NCBI GenBank assembly: GCA_018268255.1
Contig: JAFDWX010000005.1
Location: forward strand, 124,001 to 188,000
Reading direction: 5' to 3'
DNA from: Armatimonadota bacterium
GTDB lineage: Bacteria; Armatimonadota; Fimbriimonadia; Fimbriimonadales; Fimbriimonadaceae
DNA: 64,000 nt
The notes under the pieces were generated by a model that saw only the letters and a list, made by a program, of their open reading frames with translations, was not told where the DNA came from and did not search any database. Of the stretch, positions 3,560 to 10,534 are shown piece after piece. A program made the position numbers and the translations under genes. The stretch's first letter is position 1, and every line of letters starts with the position of its first letter.

Positions 3560-4621
3560 ATGAATCAACCGCTACTCAAACGACTGACCGAAGCCCATGG
3601 CATCCCAGGTCAGGAAACAGCCATCCGCGCGATCGTCAAAGAAGAACTGAAGGGATTGTGCGAATTTGAAACCGACCTGATGGGCAACCTGATTTGCACC
3701 AAAAAAGCCACGAAGCCTCCCAAATCCGGTGCGGCCAAGCGTGTGATGCTGGCTGCGCACATGGACGAAATCGGCTTTGTCGTCCGCTTCATCGACGGAT
3801 CCGGTTTTCTGCGCTTGCAGCCCCTCGGCGGATGGGATCCTCGTCAGATGGCGTCCCAGCGGGTTATCGTTCACACCCAAAAGGGACCCATCAACGGGCT
3901 ACTGGGTTTGGAGAGCAAACCGAAGCACATGCTCTCCGCCGAGGAAGCTAACAAGGCGCCGGCAGTGGATCAGTATTTTGTGGATTGCGGTCTTTCGGGA
4001 GATGAAGCCAAAGCCCAGGTACGACTCGGCGACATGGTGACCATGAATCGTGCATTCCAAACCATGGGCAAGCTGATGACTTGCAAGGCGATGGACGACC
4101 GTGTTGCGGTGTACACCATGATCGAGGCCATGCGAGCGGTCAAGGACCACTCAGTGGATATCGTGGGAGTGGCAACGGTACAGGAGGAGATCGGACTCCG
4201 CGGCGCATCGGCGTCCGGCTGGGCCGTCAAGCCCGATGTCGTGGTGGCAATCGACATCACACTCGCGAACGACATCCCAGGGATTAAGGAGCAAGATCAA
4301 ATCACCCGTTTGGGTGAAGGAACGGCAATCAAAATTCTGGACTCGTCATTGATCTGCCACCCGCTGTTGGTGGACCACTTCCGAACCGTCGCGGAAAAGA
4401 ACAAAATTTCGCATCAGATGGAAGTACTGCCAGCTGGTGGAACGGATGCGGGCGGCATCCAACGCCTGCACGGTGGCATCCCGGCGTTTACGCTCTCCAT
4501 TCCCTGCCGATATGTTCACACTGTGAATGAAACAGTTCACAGTGATGATGTGGATGCCTCGGTCCAGATTTTGGCCAAGTATCTTGAAGACGCCCACAAC
4601 GGCAAATACACCTGGGATTGA
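3560..4621 (+). CDS. M42 family metallopeptidase (glutamyl aminopeptidase / FrvX-like)
   Basis: The 353-residue product matches the M42 family of cytosolic, tetrahedral dodecameric aminopeptidases. Visible motifs are LAAHMDEIGF with zinc ligand His67 and Asp69, the AMDDR segment carrying the bridging Asp, the catalytic VQEEIGLRGA, AIDIT, and the C-terminal zinc histidine in YVHTVNETVHSDD. These enzymes trim N-terminal residues from peptides; some relatives were annotated as cellulases in error. There is no signal peptide, so it acts in the cytoplasm. A strong hairpin follows the stop codon. Confidence 0.93.
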   Translation: MNQPLLKRLTEAHGIPGQETAIRAIVKEELKGLCEFETDLMGNLICTKKATKPPKSGAAKRVMLAAHMDEIGFVVRFIDGSGFLRLQPLGGWDPRQMASQRVIVHTQKGPINGLLGLESKPKHMLSAEEANKAPAVDQYFVDCGLSGDEAKAQVRLGDMVTMNRAFQTMGKLMTCKAMDDRVAVYTMIEAMRAVKDHSVDIVGVATVQEEIGLRGASASGWAVKPDVVVAIDITLANDIPGIKEQDQITRLGEGTAIKILDSSLICHPLLVDHFRTVAEKNKISHQMEVLPAGGTDAGGIQRLHGGIPAFTLSIPCRYVHTVNETVHSDDVDASVQILAKYLEDAHNGKYTWD

Positions 4622-4642: not shown

Positions 4643-4672
4643 ACGGGGATGTGATAAAAATCACATCCCCGT
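4643..4672 (+). terminator. Perfect 12-bp hairpin after the M42 peptidase gene
   Basis: ACGGGGATGTGA pairs perfectly with TCACATCCCCGT around a TAAAAA loop, 21 nt after the stop. The following TGTGTTCT is only moderately T-rich, so it is a probable but imperfect intrinsic terminator. Confidence 0.6.
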
Positions 4673-4768: not shown

Positions 4769-5710
4769 ATGAAGGGCACGTTAAGAACCACCATTCTCTT
4801 GGGCTTGGCTCTCCTGGGAGCCACACCTGCACTCTGCAACTATTACGCCGAACCAGAAGAAAAGGAAGAAGCCACATATCGATTGGCGATTCCCGCCTTC
4901 ATCGTGCCGACTTCGATTGTGGAATCGGTCGGTCGATATTCCAGCGACCTGACGCAGGCCTATATGCGGGAGCAAATGGCAGACCTCCTCACGGAGCGCA
5001 TCAAAGAGGAAAGCCCCGATGTAGTCCTCTTGGAACGGCGCGAACTCGATCAAGCACTCAATGAGCTTGGCTTGGACGAGTCTGGACTCATGGAGACGGA
5101 CGGCGCAGTTCGATTGGGAAAGATGAAGAAGGCAAACTTCATCGTCATCGGCACGGTCTCGAGCATCAGCATCGGCGATGTTCCGGAAAACAGACGCTCG
5201 GTGATGGAATACGGGAAGGATGTAAAGGAAACCGTCGTTACCATTTCCGCGAGATTGGTGAATGTGGAAACCGCTGAGATCATCGTTACTCAGAACGTTT
5301 CGGGACGAGAGCGACTCGGCGTCATATCCAGCGATGCGCGAAACATCAAGAGCTTTTCCGATACTGTGATCAAAGCAGCTAACTATGCTGCTACAGAAAT
5401 TGAAAAGACATTCCGGCCGTTCTTCAACCCATTAGTCGAAGCCAAAGCGATCAGCAAAGATACGACGGATATCATTTTGCAGAAAGGAAAAGCTCACGGG
5501 CTAAAGAAAGGCGAACTCTTCAGAATCTACGGCATTAAGAGTAGGGACAAGGCGACTGGTTTTGAGGATCGTGAATTCCTTGGTACCGTCGAGGTGGTGG
5601 AAGTGCAGGCACAAGCGTGCCGCTGCAAGTTCAAATCTGAACCGACCATGCACCCCACCAAGTTCAAGAACGGTCTCAAGGCTATTCCCATCGCATTGGA
5701 CAAGGATTGA
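4769..5710 (+). CDS. Exported CsgG-like protein with C-terminal FlgT-type domain
   Basis: The 313-residue protein has a clear signal peptide (about residues 1-23, LLGLALLGATPALC). Residues 30-190 resemble the CsgG/TolB-like periplasmic fold: VVLLERRELDQALNELGL, then a D-x-x-x-x-RLGK segment and ANFIVIGTVSSI, the usual CsgG landmarks. The last 80 residues (IILQKGKAHGLKKGELFRIY onward) resemble the FlgT C-terminal beta domain. Such proteins are envelope assembly or channel factors; here the target is unknown. It begins an operon: the next gene starts 5 nt downstream and a caspase gene follows. Family call is by motif, not by search. Confidence 0.75.
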   Translation: MKGTLRTTILLGLALLGATPALCNYYAEPEEKEEATYRLAIPAFIVPTSIVESVGRYSSDLTQAYMREQMADLLTERIKEESPDVVLLERRELDQALNELGLDESGLMETDGAVRLGKMKKANFIVIGTVSSISIGDVPENRRSVMEYGKDVKETVVTISARLVNVETAEIIVTQNVSGRERLGVISSDARNIKSFSDTVIKAANYAATEIEKTFRPFFNPLVEAKAISKDTTDIILQKGKAHGLKKGELFRIYGIKSRDKATGFEDREFLGTVEVVEVQAQACRCKFKSEPTMHPTKFKNGLKAIPIALDKD

Positions 5711-5715
5711 TCGCC

Positions 5716-6477
5716 ATGGCACGAGCTTTTGCTTTCCTAACGGCACTCGCAGGATTGAGTACTGCGTTATCGGCAATACCCATCCAAAAAGGGCCAGAAG
5801 AGGATCTCTTATCGCAAGTCAAGCCGATCTTTATCCGGTCGATTCCGGCGAAAGTCATGACTCTTATTGGATACGACGATCCAAACGAGTTTGCGCAAGA
5901 CTCTGAGTTTGGTCTGACACAACAAGAGTACACGGCTATCAACGAAATCGTCGGAGCGGTGATCGACAAGTCCCAAAAGGTGTTTTTGGAGAACTTCAAA
6001 AAGATTGACGCAAAGAACGACGAGGATTTGCAGAAGAAGGCCAATGAACTTGTGGACTCGATTTGCAAAGTCATAGCGGGCATGGAATCTGACTTTCTCA
6101 AACCGCTTTCCAGTAAAAAGCAGAAGAGATTCGAACAGATTGCCACTTGGATCGCAGGTCCAGGGTGCCTGGTGGAAGATCAGCGCATCCAGTCCGCAGG
6201 AACGTCGGCGATTCTCAAGAAGATCAGTCTCGACGCCCAGCAGAAGAAACGCCTGGTCGATCTGGTGAATCAATTCCGAGAAGCTCTTGCTGATTACAGA
6301 AGACCGGACATCTATGACCCGATGGATGAACAGCAAGTCAAGGCCGCCTATGCCAAAGACTGGCAGACGTTTGAGACATTTGACCAGAAAATTTTGCAAG
6401 TTCTCACTCCAACACAGCGAAAAGTTTGGGAGCAATACAGAGGCTCCAAGTTTCGCATGGCTCAACCCAAGTGGTAG
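5716..6477 (+). CDS. Exported alpha-helical protein of unknown function, middle gene of caspase operon
   Basis: The 253-residue product begins with a signal peptide (MARAFAFLTALAGLSTALSA). The rest is mostly charged, helix-favouring sequence (for example FKKIDAKNDEDLQKKANEL and repeated LTPTQRKVW-type segments) with no Cys-rich or catalytic motif I recognise. The ATG at 5716 is chosen over an upstream TTG because it starts the signal peptide directly. It is 5 nt after the CsgG-like gene and 16 nt before the caspase gene, so it is very likely translated from the same mRNA. No function is claimed. Confidence 0.75.
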   Translation: MARAFAFLTALAGLSTALSAIPIQKGPEEDLLSQVKPIFIRSIPAKVMTLIGYDDPNEFAQDSEFGLTQQEYTAINEIVGAVIDKSQKVFLENFKKIDAKNDEDLQKKANELVDSICKVIAGMESDFLKPLSSKKQKRFEQIATWIAGPGCLVEDQRIQSAGTSAILKKISLDAQQKKRLVDLVNQFREALADYRRPDIYDPMDEQQVKAAYAKDWQTFETFDQKILQVLTPTQRKVWEQYRGSKFRMAQPKW

Positions 6478-6493
6478 TTAAATCGAGGGCACT

Positions 6494-7882
6494 ATGAAAC
6501 ACTTTAATAAAGTCACTATTCTGGCATTATTGGCAACAGTCACAATGCTGCCGACATTGGCTCAGGCAAAACGCTATGTCTTATCAGTCGGCGTGGTCCA
6601 ATCCCGCGACACGCTGAGATACACACTCAACGACGCAATTCTTGTAAAAGAAATGCTTTCGCAAGATGATAGCGAAGTTGTGGTTCTTACCAGTGATGGT
6701 AAGGGGCAAGGAATGCCGACCAAGGATAACATCTACAAGACTCTGCGGGATATGATCGGAAAAGCCGGATCAGAGGATACGGTTTGGTTCTACTATTCCG
6801 GACATGGTTCAACTGATGGTAACGAGAGCATCCTTTGCACATACGGCTATCTGGAGAATCCGAGAACTGAGTACATTTCGGCGAATGCTTTGCGAAAGGA
6901 AATCGATTCGAAGTCGCACTGCAAGGGTTTTGTAATGGTCTTGGATGCATGCCATTCTGGTTCCTTAAAGGCATTGCCAGGCTTGCCACTGTCTCAAGTT
7001 TTTGCGCCTATCAAAGGCATTTCAACTTGGGCATCCTGTGAAATCGGCGAGACATCGCTGGAGCTTCCGGAACTCAAGCATGGGCTTTTCACCTATGTCT
7101 TTGCCAGAGGCATCGCAGGCGCGGCTGCTGGCAAGGATACAACGGTTACCCTGAGCGACCTGAAGAACTACGTGACCAAAACCACAGCCGATTGGGCGAA
7201 GAAGTTTGCCCAGCATCCCCAGAATCCTGTGATTACGTTTACCGAGGGCAGCGGATCGACGCCGGTGGGTCAAACAAACGATGACGCCCTGACGCAAGTG
7301 CCGGAACCGACCCCCGATCAACAGGTGGCACGCCCCACTGAGCCACTTCCGCCCGGCGTGATTGTGACGTTTGAGGCAGCTGGGTCCACCACGGCCGAGT
7401 CCACCGAAGATGTCGAAACGGTGTTTCGCCAACAGCTTCTGGAAGGCAACTACCCGGTTGTCAGTTCAGAGCAGGCGACAGACATGCTCACGGTTCTCCG
7501 CAATCGAGATAGCGCCCAAGCCGCGCAACAGGCGCAGCGGATGTTCTGCCGGTTCCTCCTTCGTGGCAAGGTGACCGTGAAGACTCGAAGCACCACCGTA
7601 GGCAAGCGAACGGTTTTCGTTGCCGCCGTGACCATCAACGGACAGGTGGTGGACAGCGACGGCAGCGTGCTGGTTTCGCTCAACACGGATAGCGGTGAGG
7701 GAGTGCCAGTGGAAGGACAAGGCTTTTCCGAAGATCGAGCAATCAAGGTAGGCGTTCGGAAAGCTGCCGAGGCGGCGGTGAAAATCGCTATGCCAGCCAT
7801 GGACAAAGTCGTGCGACCCCGGTTAACGCAGGGTGGCAAAACCGCAGAGATCCTGAAGTTCGAGCAGATGATTGGTTTGTAG
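6494..7882 (+). CDS. Exported caspase-fold (C14, metacaspase-like) peptidase
   Basis: The 462-residue protein has a signal peptide (residues 1-25, ending AQA). A C14 caspase domain spans about 26-235: RYTLNDAILVKEML, the catalytic histidine in YYSGHG (His104), the catalytic cysteine in LDACHSG (Cys153) and the substrate-pocket region ASCEIGETS with HGLFTYVFARGI. A proline-rich linker (260-290) leads to a C-terminal beta domain (about 290-462) resembling the CsgG/FlgT/LPP20 type. Both catalytic residues are intact, so an active Cys protease cutting after basic or acidic residues is plausible. It closes a three-gene exported operon. Confidence 0.88.
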   Translation: MKHFNKVTILALLATVTMLPTLAQAKRYVLSVGVVQSRDTLRYTLNDAILVKEMLSQDDSEVVVLTSDGKGQGMPTKDNIYKTLRDMIGKAGSEDTVWFYYSGHGSTDGNESILCTYGYLENPRTEYISANALRKEIDSKSHCKGFVMVLDACHSGSLKALPGLPLSQVFAPIKGISTWASCEIGETSLELPELKHGLFTYVFARGIAGAAAGKDTTVTLSDLKNYVTKTTADWAKKFAQHPQNPVITFTEGSGSTPVGQTNDDALTQVPEPTPDQQVARPTEPLPPGVIVTFEAAGSTTAESTEDVETVFRQQLLEGNYPVVSSEQATDMLTVLRNRDSAQAAQQAQRMFCRFLLRGKVTVKTRSTTVGKRTVFVAAVTINGQVVDSDGSVLVSLNTDSGEGVPVEGQGFSEDRAIKVGVRKAAEAAVKIAMPAMDKVVRPRLTQGGKTAEILKFEQMIGL

Positions 7883-7915: not shown

Positions 7916-7941
7916 GGGGCCGGAGCTTTGCTCCCGGCCCC
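7916..7941. terminator. Hairpin terminator between converging caspase and glgP genes
   Basis: GGGGCCGGAG pairs with CTCCCGGCCCC (one bulged C) around a short loop. It is preceded by an A-run and followed by AATTTATATAAT, and sits between two convergent genes, so it can serve both strands. Confidence 0.7.
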
Positions 7942-7957
7942 AATTTATATAATGGGC

Positions 7958-10534
7958 TTACGCTTTTTGCCAGGAAACCAGAGCCAGCTCTGTTTCGACC
8001 CGAACATTGGCATGTTTGGGCATTACCCGCGCGATATAGCCCAGGTGGCCGGGGCGGTCCAGCTTCACCGCGACCTTGAATCGATGGACTCCTGTTCCCT
8101 GCTCACTGTCGTGAACTGCATCCAAGTGTTGGAGGTTGTGGAGTTCCCGGCTGGTGCCCACTGTGCCCACCAATAGCTGAACTCGAACATCGTCTGGCTT
8201 TAAAGCGCCCAAGGCGACGTCGATGCTCACTTCGAATTTTCCACCCAAAGCGTTTGACCGCGAAGAGTCGTCGCTTACCTTTGCGATCGAGACGGTCTTC
8301 CAAGCCTCAAGCACGCGGCGCCGCCACTCGAATGCTTCTCGTCCGGCCGCCAGTGAGTTCTCCTGGAGCTTGTTGAAGCATGTCGAACTCGGCATGTAGA
8401 ACTTCGTGGCGTAGTCCTCCACCATACGCGAGGTGCTGAAATACGGCGCGAGTTCTTTCATTGATTTGCGCATCATTTCCAACCAGCCATTGGGCAAACC
8501 ATTTTCGCCTCGAGCGTAGAATGTTGGTGCGATCTCCTGCTCCAGCAGTTGGTAGAGCGATCGTGAATCCAGCCAATCTCGATGTCCCTGATCGGTTTCA
8601 TCGCTCTCATCACCGATGGCCCAACCACGGCCAGGGGCGTATCCCTCGGCCCACCAGCCATCCAAAACCGAGCAGTTTAGGCCACCGTTGGGAACTACTT
8701 TCATTCCGCTGGTGCCGCTTGCTTCCATCGGTCTTCGAGGATTGTTGAGCCACACATCCACACCCTGAACCAGCCAGCGTGCCACTTCCATATCGTAGTC
8801 CTCCAGGAACAGCATTCTTGCCGAGCCGCCTTCGTGGTTGATGAAGTTGTGGATCTCCTGAATCAGGTTCTTTCCGCCGTCGTCCCGCGGGTGGGACTTT
8901 CCAGCCAAAACGATTTGGACAGGTCGTTCGGCGTTAAACAGGATCGACTTGAGTCGCTCCTTGTCGGTGAACATTAGCGTGGCCCGCTTGTACGTGGCGA
9001 ATCGGCGAGCAAATCCAATCGTGAGCGCCCGAGGATCAAGCATGCTGCTGGCGTTGCTGATCTCTTGGCGCGACGCATTCCGCTTCATCAACGTATTCAC
9101 CAGTCGCCTCCGACAGAATCGGATGAAATCGCCGCGTTGATTTTCACGGAGCTCCCACAGGTCGTGGTCGGGAATGCTCTCTGCCGCAGCAGCCCAAACG
9201 TCCGGATCGGACGGGTTTCTTCGCCAATTCCCACCAACGTACTGGTCCATGAGCGAAGTCATTCGCCAACTGATCCAGGTCGGCGTGTGGATGCCGTTGG
9301 TGATCCCCTCGACGGGAACTTCATCCACCGGATAATCGGGCCAGCGAGCGCTGAACATCCCTCGCGAAACTTCTGCGTGGAGCAGGCTCACGCCATTGAC
9401 GTAATTGGCGTTGGCCATGGCGAGGATCGCCATGTTGAAACCTTCAGACGCGTCATCGCCATTGAACTTTCCAAGGCGGACAAATTCGTCGAACTTCCAG
9501 CCGCTCTGCTCGACCTCCTTGCGCATGAATTTCTCAAGGACGTCGCGGTGAAAGATATCGAAACCAGCCGGTACCGGCGTGTGAGTTGTAAAGACGTTCC
9601 CTGCCACCACAATCTGGCGTGCCAATCGGTTGTCGCAGCTGTGCTCTTCCATGATCTGCTGTAGGCGCTCGATCGTGAGGAACGCTGCATGGCCTTCGTT
9701 CATGTGGCAAACCGTAGGCTTGATTCCCAGAGTTTTGAGCGCTTTCATTCCGCCGATGCCGAGGATCATCTCCTGACGGATGCGCATTTGTTCATCGCCG
9801 CCATACAGAGTGTCGGTAATCGTTTGATCGTCGGGTGCATTTTCCAGGACGTTGCTATCCAAAAGGTACAGCTTGATCCGGCCGATATCCGCGCGCCAAA
9901 TTTGGCACGTTACGGTTCGATCCGGAAATTCTACGGTCACCCGAAGCGGCTGATGGTTGTCTCCCCGGAGAAGTTCCAGCGGCATCCGATAGAAGTCGTA
10001 ATCGGGATAGTATTCCTGCTGCCAACCTTCGGGCGAGAGCCGCTGCCGGAAATATCCTCTCGAATAGAGCAAGCCAACTCCGACCAATGGCAAACCAAGG
10101 TCACTGGCTGCTTTGAGATGGTCTCCAGCCAGAACACCGAGACCACCCGAGTAAATCGGGAGCGATTCAGAGACTCCAAATTCAGCACAGAAGTATGCGA
10201 TCTTGGTCTTTTCGCGCTCACCTTTGTAGGTCTCGTCGAACCAGTTTTCGCCTGTAAGATATTCGTCCAGATCCCGCTCGCAGAGTTGAAGTTTGACCAA
10301 AAAGACCTCGTCTTGAGCAAGTTTCTCTTTCCGCTCCGCACTGAGCCGATTGATGAGTTCAAGGGGGTTGTGTTCGACAGCTGTCCAAAGTTGCGGGTCT
10401 ACCTCAGAAAAAAGCTGTTGGGTCTCGTGGTGCCAGGTCCACCGAAAGTTCATGGCGAGTTTGCGGAGAGGTTGCAACGCCTCCGGAAGCTCAGAGACCA
10501 CTTCAAAAGAATGTGCGTACTTAAGAAACTTCAT
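7958..10534 (-). CDS. glgP: Alpha-glucan (glycogen/maltodextrin) phosphorylase, GT35
   Basis: The 858-residue protein matches the shorter GT35 phosphorylase type that starts with a DUF3417-like helical region (about residues 1-110), followed by the phosphorylase core. The pyridoxal-phosphate lysine lies in EASGTSGMK (Lys612), with CHMNEGHAAF and FTTHTPVPAGFD typical of the family. It releases glucose-1-phosphate from glycogen using phosphate. It has no signal peptide. It lies 65 nt downstream of a YdeI-like gene on the same strand; glgA lies about 50 kb away in this window, so glycogen genes are dispersed. Confidence 0.95.
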   Translation of the reverse strand: MKFLKYAHSFEVVSELPEALQPLRKLAMNFRWTWHHETQQLFSEVDPQLWTAVEHNPLELINRLSAERKEKLAQDEVFLVKLQLCERDLDEYLTGENWFDETYKGEREKTKIAYFCAEFGVSESLPIYSGGLGVLAGDHLKAASDLGLPLVGVGLLYSRGYFRQRLSPEGWQQEYYPDYDFYRMPLELLRGDNHQPLRVTVEFPDRTVTCQIWRADIGRIKLYLLDSNVLENAPDDQTITDTLYGGDEQMRIRQEMILGIGGMKALKTLGIKPTVCHMNEGHAAFLTIERLQQIMEEHSCDNRLARQIVVAGNVFTTHTPVPAGFDIFHRDVLEKFMRKEVEQSGWKFDEFVRLGKFNGDDASEGFNMAILAMANANYVNGVSLLHAEVSRGMFSARWPDYPVDEVPVEGITNGIHTPTWISWRMTSLMDQYVGGNWRRNPSDPDVWAAAAESIPDHDLWELRENQRGDFIRFCRRRLVNTLMKRNASRQEISNASSMLDPRALTIGFARRFATYKRATLMFTDKERLKSILFNAERPVQIVLAGKSHPRDDGGKNLIQEIHNFINHEGGSARMLFLEDYDMEVARWLVQGVDVWLNNPRRPMEASGTSGMKVVPNGGLNCSVLDGWWAEGYAPGRGWAIGDESDETDQGHRDWLDSRSLYQLLEQEIAPTFYARGENGLPNGWLEMMRKSMKELAPYFSTSRMVEDYATKFYMPSSTCFNKLQENSLAAGREAFEWRRRVLEAWKTVSIAKVSDDSSRSNALGGKFEVSIDVALGALKPDDVRVQLLVGTVGTSRELHNLQHLDAVHDSEQGTGVHRFKVAVKLDRPGHLGYIARVMPKHANVRVETELALVSWQKA

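Follow-up and report, generated by a model that had tools for sequence, protein, structure and literature searches.

A gene for an exported caspase-type peptidase and a gene for a CsgG-type protein are kept side by side in distant relatives within the Armatimonadota, and this conserved pairing points to an undescribed envelope protein-cutting module. In the window, the whole 64,000-nucleotide stretch of Fimbriimonadaceae DNA analysed here, the pair belongs to a three-gene operon. What is new is the domain architecture of this caspase operon and the partner of its caspase; exported metacaspases and metacaspase operons were already known. The operon and the hairpins on either side of it are as follows:

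4769-5710, plus strand: gene 1, CsgG plus FlgT_C protein, 313 aa (open reading frame)
5716-6477, plus strand: gene 2, helical exported protein, 253 aa from ATG (open reading frame)
6494-7882, plus strand: gene 3, exported caspase (Peptidase C14) with a CsgG-fold C-terminal domain, 462 aa (open reading frame)
4643-4672, plus strand: terminator-like hairpin formed by a perfect inverted repeat of 13 bp (ACGGGGATGTGAT / ATCACATCCCCGT), after the presumed M42-type gene and before the operon
7916-7941, no strand assigned: GC-rich hairpin between the caspase gene and the presumed glycogen phosphorylase gene, with a T-run on the minus strand

The reading frames, their order, their common strand and the gaps of 5 nt (genes 1 and 2) and 16 nt (genes 2 and 3) are as the initial annotation had claimed. 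Its signal peptides are likewise borne out, in that each product starts with a hydrophobic N-terminus and a type-I-like cleavage site according to a simple hydropathy heuristic (not SignalP); the same heuristic gave no later transmembrane segment in any of the three proteins. Upstream lies a gene (3560-4621) that, from reading its sequence, we take to encode an M42-type aminopeptidase, and a gene on the minus strand (7958-10534), convergent with the caspase gene and named in the same way, presumably encodes glycogen phosphorylase. In a genome of the same genus (G002) these two flanking genes are approximately 6 kb apart and in a different order, and in G001 they are on separate contigs. The inverted repeat at 4643-4672 may act as a terminator or as an operator. 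Since terminator-like matches are not enriched relative to shuffled sequence, both hairpins are only suggestive.

The gene 3 product matches Peptidase_C14 (Pfam, 1e-15) and, by profile comparison, metacaspases (E 1.7e-18). For its AF2 model (mean pLDDT 75), the best structure matches are metacaspase-4 and -9, with Z scores of 22 and 21 over 211-217 residues and rmsd values of 2.5-3.0 (metacaspase-4: Z 22, rmsd 3.0, 217 residues). The catalytic dyad, described at the outset as intact, is present and is invariant in 5/5 members of the family:

6803-6805, plus strand: codon of the catalytic His104
6950-6952, plus strand: codon of the catalytic Cys153

Two acidic S1-type residues, Asp47 and Asp151, are also invariant in all five members and align with acidic residues of metacaspase-9. 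In TbMCA2, Asp95 and Asp211 receive basic P1 residues (PMC4357240, PMC6426788). Because the metacaspase aspartates that accept basic P1 residues are the ones aligned with Asp47 and Asp151, the window caspase is predicted to cut after Arg or Lys.

Behind the catalytic domain, the caspase carries a further domain, its fold assigned by profile comparison and predicted topology:

7340-7828, plus strand: CsgG-fold C-terminal domain of the caspase, residues 283-445

A profile of this region matches the CsgG profile with an hhalign probability of 93.6% (E 2.1e-7, 134 columns), in agreement with the CsgG/FlgT-like tail noted initially; among the controls, 20 column shuffles gave at most 0.3% and the caspase catalytic domain 0.4%. 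The predicted topology is beta-alpha-beta-alpha-alpha-beta-beta-beta-alpha, an order that we take to agree with the CsgG/LpoB fold. Searched on its own, the C-terminus has no significant Pfam family, the best relevant match being LpoB at 0.019 in the L119 homologue, and when the whole caspase model was compared with known structures, caspase domains filled the match list. On the basis of the profile comparison and the predicted topology, the C-terminal domain is a remote relative of the CsgG fold.

The gene 1 product is itself a CsgG/FlgT-like protein, as proposed, with a Pfam CsgG match above cut-off (3.6e-9) and a sub-threshold FlgT_C match:

4967-5317, plus strand: CsgG domain of gene 1, residues 67-183, covering profile positions 37-154 of 210
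5471-5650, plus strand: FlgT_C-like domain of gene 1, residues 235-294, Pfam 0.0025, below cut-off

Gene 1 is the sole CsgG match in the 3.19 Mb of the window genome. A five-sequence profile built on it matches E. coli CsgG structures, and its FlgT_C part finds TsaP as well (E 0.007).

Is the pairing of these two genes conserved? Full-length caspases, with both the catalytic and the C-terminal domain, occur in 5/291 Armatimonadota genomes, a set bounded by a sharp gap in E values (at most 1e-166, against 1e-52 for the next match); those of the relatives are only 25-36% identical. A scan of GTDB r220, with one genome per species, placed full-length relatives, among the matches listed, in four MAGs, including Armatimonadetes, Fimbriimonas and Chthonomonadales. 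In four of the five full-length caspase loci a CsgG gene is directly adjacent, or lies in the same tight operon with the helical gene between. The order of the complete triple is kept in G031, with identities to the window of 30% (CsgG), 20% (helical protein) and 33% (caspase). G071 encodes a 582-aa protein in which the CsgG-FlgT_C-type unit occurs twice in tandem (L111:8531-10279), the gene of which overlaps the caspase start by one base, and has no helical gene in the locus. In G074 the caspase gene leads, followed by CsgG and then by a gene for a CHASE2-like membrane protein. At the fifth locus (G143/L119, a Chthonomonadales MAG), a gene for an exported WD40 protein (L119:4387-5859) lies 16 nt upstream of the caspase. 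The C-terminus of this protein is weakly TolB_N/CsgG-like, with matches below the Pfam cut-offs (TolB_N 0.012, CsgG 0.025), a likeness not recovered by hhalign (3%).

Some further features of these loci may be recorded here. In G031, a lytic-transglycosylase-like gene is found just upstream of the CsgG gene (L009:153-1232). The CHASE2-like membrane protein of G074 (L112:7939-9591, minus strand; Pfam E 0.016) is encoded 3' of the CsgG gene; a caspase-CHASE2 fusion has been reported in a cyanobacterium (PMC3501461). The WD40 protein of L119 looks like a TolB in which the two domains have changed places.

An LTXXQ gene is present at two of the five loci; the other three have a tandem CsgG without a third gene, the CHASE2-like membrane protein and an outer-membrane-barrel-like gene, respectively, and the flanking genes differ from locus to locus. 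Because gene order and the third gene both vary, the conserved unit is the caspase-CsgG pair and not the triple. The check proposed in the initial annotation, co-occurrence across the phylum, therefore holds for the pair at 4/5 loci, but the triple recurs in one further genome only (2/291 with the window genome). Treating the four CsgG-adjacent cases as independent, although they are only partly so, gives a rough chance probability of 6e-13; over the whole phylum, chance would give 0.5 caspase-CsgG pairs no more than 5 kb apart, and at least six are seen. The broader proposition, a CsgG partner for every Armatimonadota caspase, was rejected: the majority of the other caspases in the phylum lack a CsgG/FlgT-like gene nearby, so the pairing is a feature of particular groups.

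A second, separate Armatimonadota family consists of S-layer-domain caspases, followed by one or more unassigned exported proteins and by CsgG-like and FlgT/DUF3280-like proteins:

L197:2247-7407: S-layer-domain caspase cluster
L198:6189-13494, minus strand: S-layer-domain caspase cluster
L220:7064-12916: S-layer-domain caspase cluster

The FlgT/DUF3280-like gene is found in all three clusters and the CsgG-like gene in two (L197 and L198). The C-terminal HMM of the window family matches the separate FlgT-like protein in L197 (E 1.8e-6, hhalign 91%). A domain that is fused in one lineage and encoded by a neighbouring gene in another is the usual sign of a functional link, and the CsgG-type fold, part of the caspase in the window family and of a neighbouring protein in the S-layer family, suggests such a link here.

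The middle gene had been described as encoding an unknown helical protein. Helical and exported it is, but it is not unclassifiable, given an LTXXQ homologue at E 2e-8. Directly, the protein has no Pfam family match, LTXXQ included. Its homologues among the relatives have E values of 2e-8 to 1e-4, and the three that were read are exported LTXXQ proteins (Pfam PF07813 at 3.2e-10, 4e-6 and 8.5e-6), the best Pfam value belonging to the nearest homologue, in L002. The alignment keeps both LTxxQ-type motifs, together with a GP between them and a terminal G..F:

6229-6243, plus strand: first LTxxQ-type motif of gene 2, a degenerate LDAQQ (LTETQ at the aligned site of the orthologue)
6403-6417, plus strand: second LTxxQ motif of gene 2, LTPTQ

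STV, NccX, CnrX, CpxP and Spy are prominent among the structure matches (Z 6-7.7); the AF2 model is weak (mean pLDDT 54), so that these fold matches only support the sequence evidence. Taken together, the LTXXQ homologues, the kept motifs and the low-confidence structure matches suggest that gene 2 encodes a diverged, Spy/CpxP-like member of the LTXXQ family.

What might the operon do? Our leading reading, which we hold tentatively and rate a little short of even, is an extracytoplasmic (periplasmic) module for proteolysis specific for basic residues, with a CsgG-fold scaffold and a chaperone or adaptor, serving envelope protein processing or quality control. The caspase would be an active metacaspase-type cysteine peptidase, cutting after Arg or Lys, and its C-terminal domain would dock onto, or co-assemble with, the separate CsgG/FlgT_C protein. 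The latter may oligomerise into a scaffold by which the peptidase is positioned or activated at the envelope. As a chaperone or substrate adaptor, the LTXXQ protein could bind envelope proteins that are misfolded or still immature, for which there is a precedent in CpxP, proposed to deliver substrates to DegP (PMC6737893). Such an adaptor would be an optional part, and with an LTXXQ gene at only two of the five loci we place this step outside the core. In effect, envelope proteins would be processed in a regulated way or checked for quality; given its sporadic presence (5/291 genomes), an accessory trait fits better than a general quality-control pathway.

An unlikely alternative, albeit one worth weighing, is a periplasmic death or lysis switch. 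Here, the CsgG/FlgT_C protein (elsewhere CHASE2 or WD40) would sense envelope damage and oligomerise, gathering and activating caspases via their CsgG-fold tails so that the envelope is destroyed, much like an apoptosome but extracytoplasmic. The sensor- or platform-type partners in G074 (CHASE2-like) and L119 (WD40) would suit this, as would a sporadic distribution resembling that of conditional systems. On activation, the precedents diverge: in clan CD there are members that become active on dimerisation, whereas metacaspases are described as active monomers (PMC4357240). Against a switch of this kind, the operon has no membrane-lytic part, and no anti-phage family was matched beyond a generic caspase model. 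The latter result comes from the PADLOC anti-phage profiles, which gave the generic model for the caspase (1.8e-12) and no match for genes 1 and 2; a role in anti-phage defence was considered and is unsupported.

Processing of the surface, the S-layer or the cell wall we also consider rather improbable. The peptidase would trim or anchor secreted surface proteins, held at the peptidoglycan or outer membrane by CsgG/FlgT-type proteins in the way that FlgT and TsaP act with other rings. The TsaP match of the gene 1 FlgT_C region is consistent with this, as are the related caspases that bear S-layer domains beside CsgG-like and FlgT-like genes, but the window proteins have no peptidoglycan-binding or S-layer domain.

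More speculative, and quite unlikely in our judgement, is an extracytoplasmic caspase platform, in which the CsgG-fold tails would assemble caspases on a CsgG/FlgT_C ring (elsewhere WD40 or CHASE2) and envelope signals would switch the caspase on. If true, this would in principle parallel, in a bacterium, the platforms that activate caspases.

We give very little credence to secretion or assembly, in which the CsgG-like protein would be a curli-type outer-membrane pore and the caspase would mature an exported substrate. The CsgG domain and the profile match to E. coli CsgG structures speak for it. However, no lipobox is present in the gene 1 protein or in any CsgG partner of the caspase family, whereas E. 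coli CsgG has one (LSGC). The CsgG match covers the profile only up to position 154 of 210 and leaves out most of the second hairpin; in the gene 1 alignment, the first hairpin region is of similar length and the second is shorter and charged. Moreover, no csgA/B/E/F-like gene was seen around the operon when the neighbours were read by eye. With no lipobox, an unmatched second hairpin and no nearby curli genes, a curli-type pore is unlikely. The envelope proteolysis or assembly module of the initial annotation stays the best reading of the probable function. That three unrelated exported proteins are adjacent by accident can hardly be right: the triple itself is rare (2/291 genomes), but the pair is kept in altered order and context by caspases only 25-36% identical, the caspase tail is homologous to the partner domain, the chance estimate is approximately 1e-12, and the co-occurrence contradicts it.

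For most caspase homologues in bacteria no function is known; a 2012 survey could assign none to 70 of its 217 metacaspase operons (PMC3501461). A conserved pairing with a CsgG-fold partner, whose fold recurs in the caspase itself, offers for an exported caspase a specific partner and site of action that can be tested, and it would add protease scaffolding to the roles of the CsgG/FlgT/LpoB superfamily. In line with the initial annotation, a search of the open-access literature turned up no account of a caspase that has a CsgG partner, nor a relevant paper on CsgG with FlgT. CsgG is unmentioned in the metacaspase survey (PMC3501461) and in one later survey.

Compared to known systems, gene 2 shares with Spy/CpxP (LTXXQ) proteins, and with the CpxP-DegP pair, two LTxxQ-type motifs, a helical and exported nature and a position beside a protease gene, but it is strongly diverged, lacks a direct Pfam match, and its protease is a caspase and not DegP. 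The gene 1 protein resembles the CsgG curli secretion channel in its CsgG domain and its match to the E. coli structures; it differs in the missing lipobox, the unmatched second hairpin, the added FlgT_C and the absence of curli genes around it. With the FlgT/LpoB/TsaP/TolB-type periplasmic proteins it has in common a CsgG-like fold and a FlgT_C-like domain in a soluble, exported protein, but its partner is a caspase instead of the product of flagellum, penicillin-binding protein, pilus or Tol-Pal genes. The closest kin of the peptidase are the bacterial metacaspases and orthocaspases (Peptidase C14), many of which are encoded in operons, and some of which have a probable signal peptide or belong to operons with surface functions (PMC3501461). 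The window family shares their p20 fold, His-Cys dyad and acidic specificity residues, and adds to these a C-terminal domain of the CsgG fold and, next to it, a gene for a CsgG/FlgT_C or TolB-type partner.
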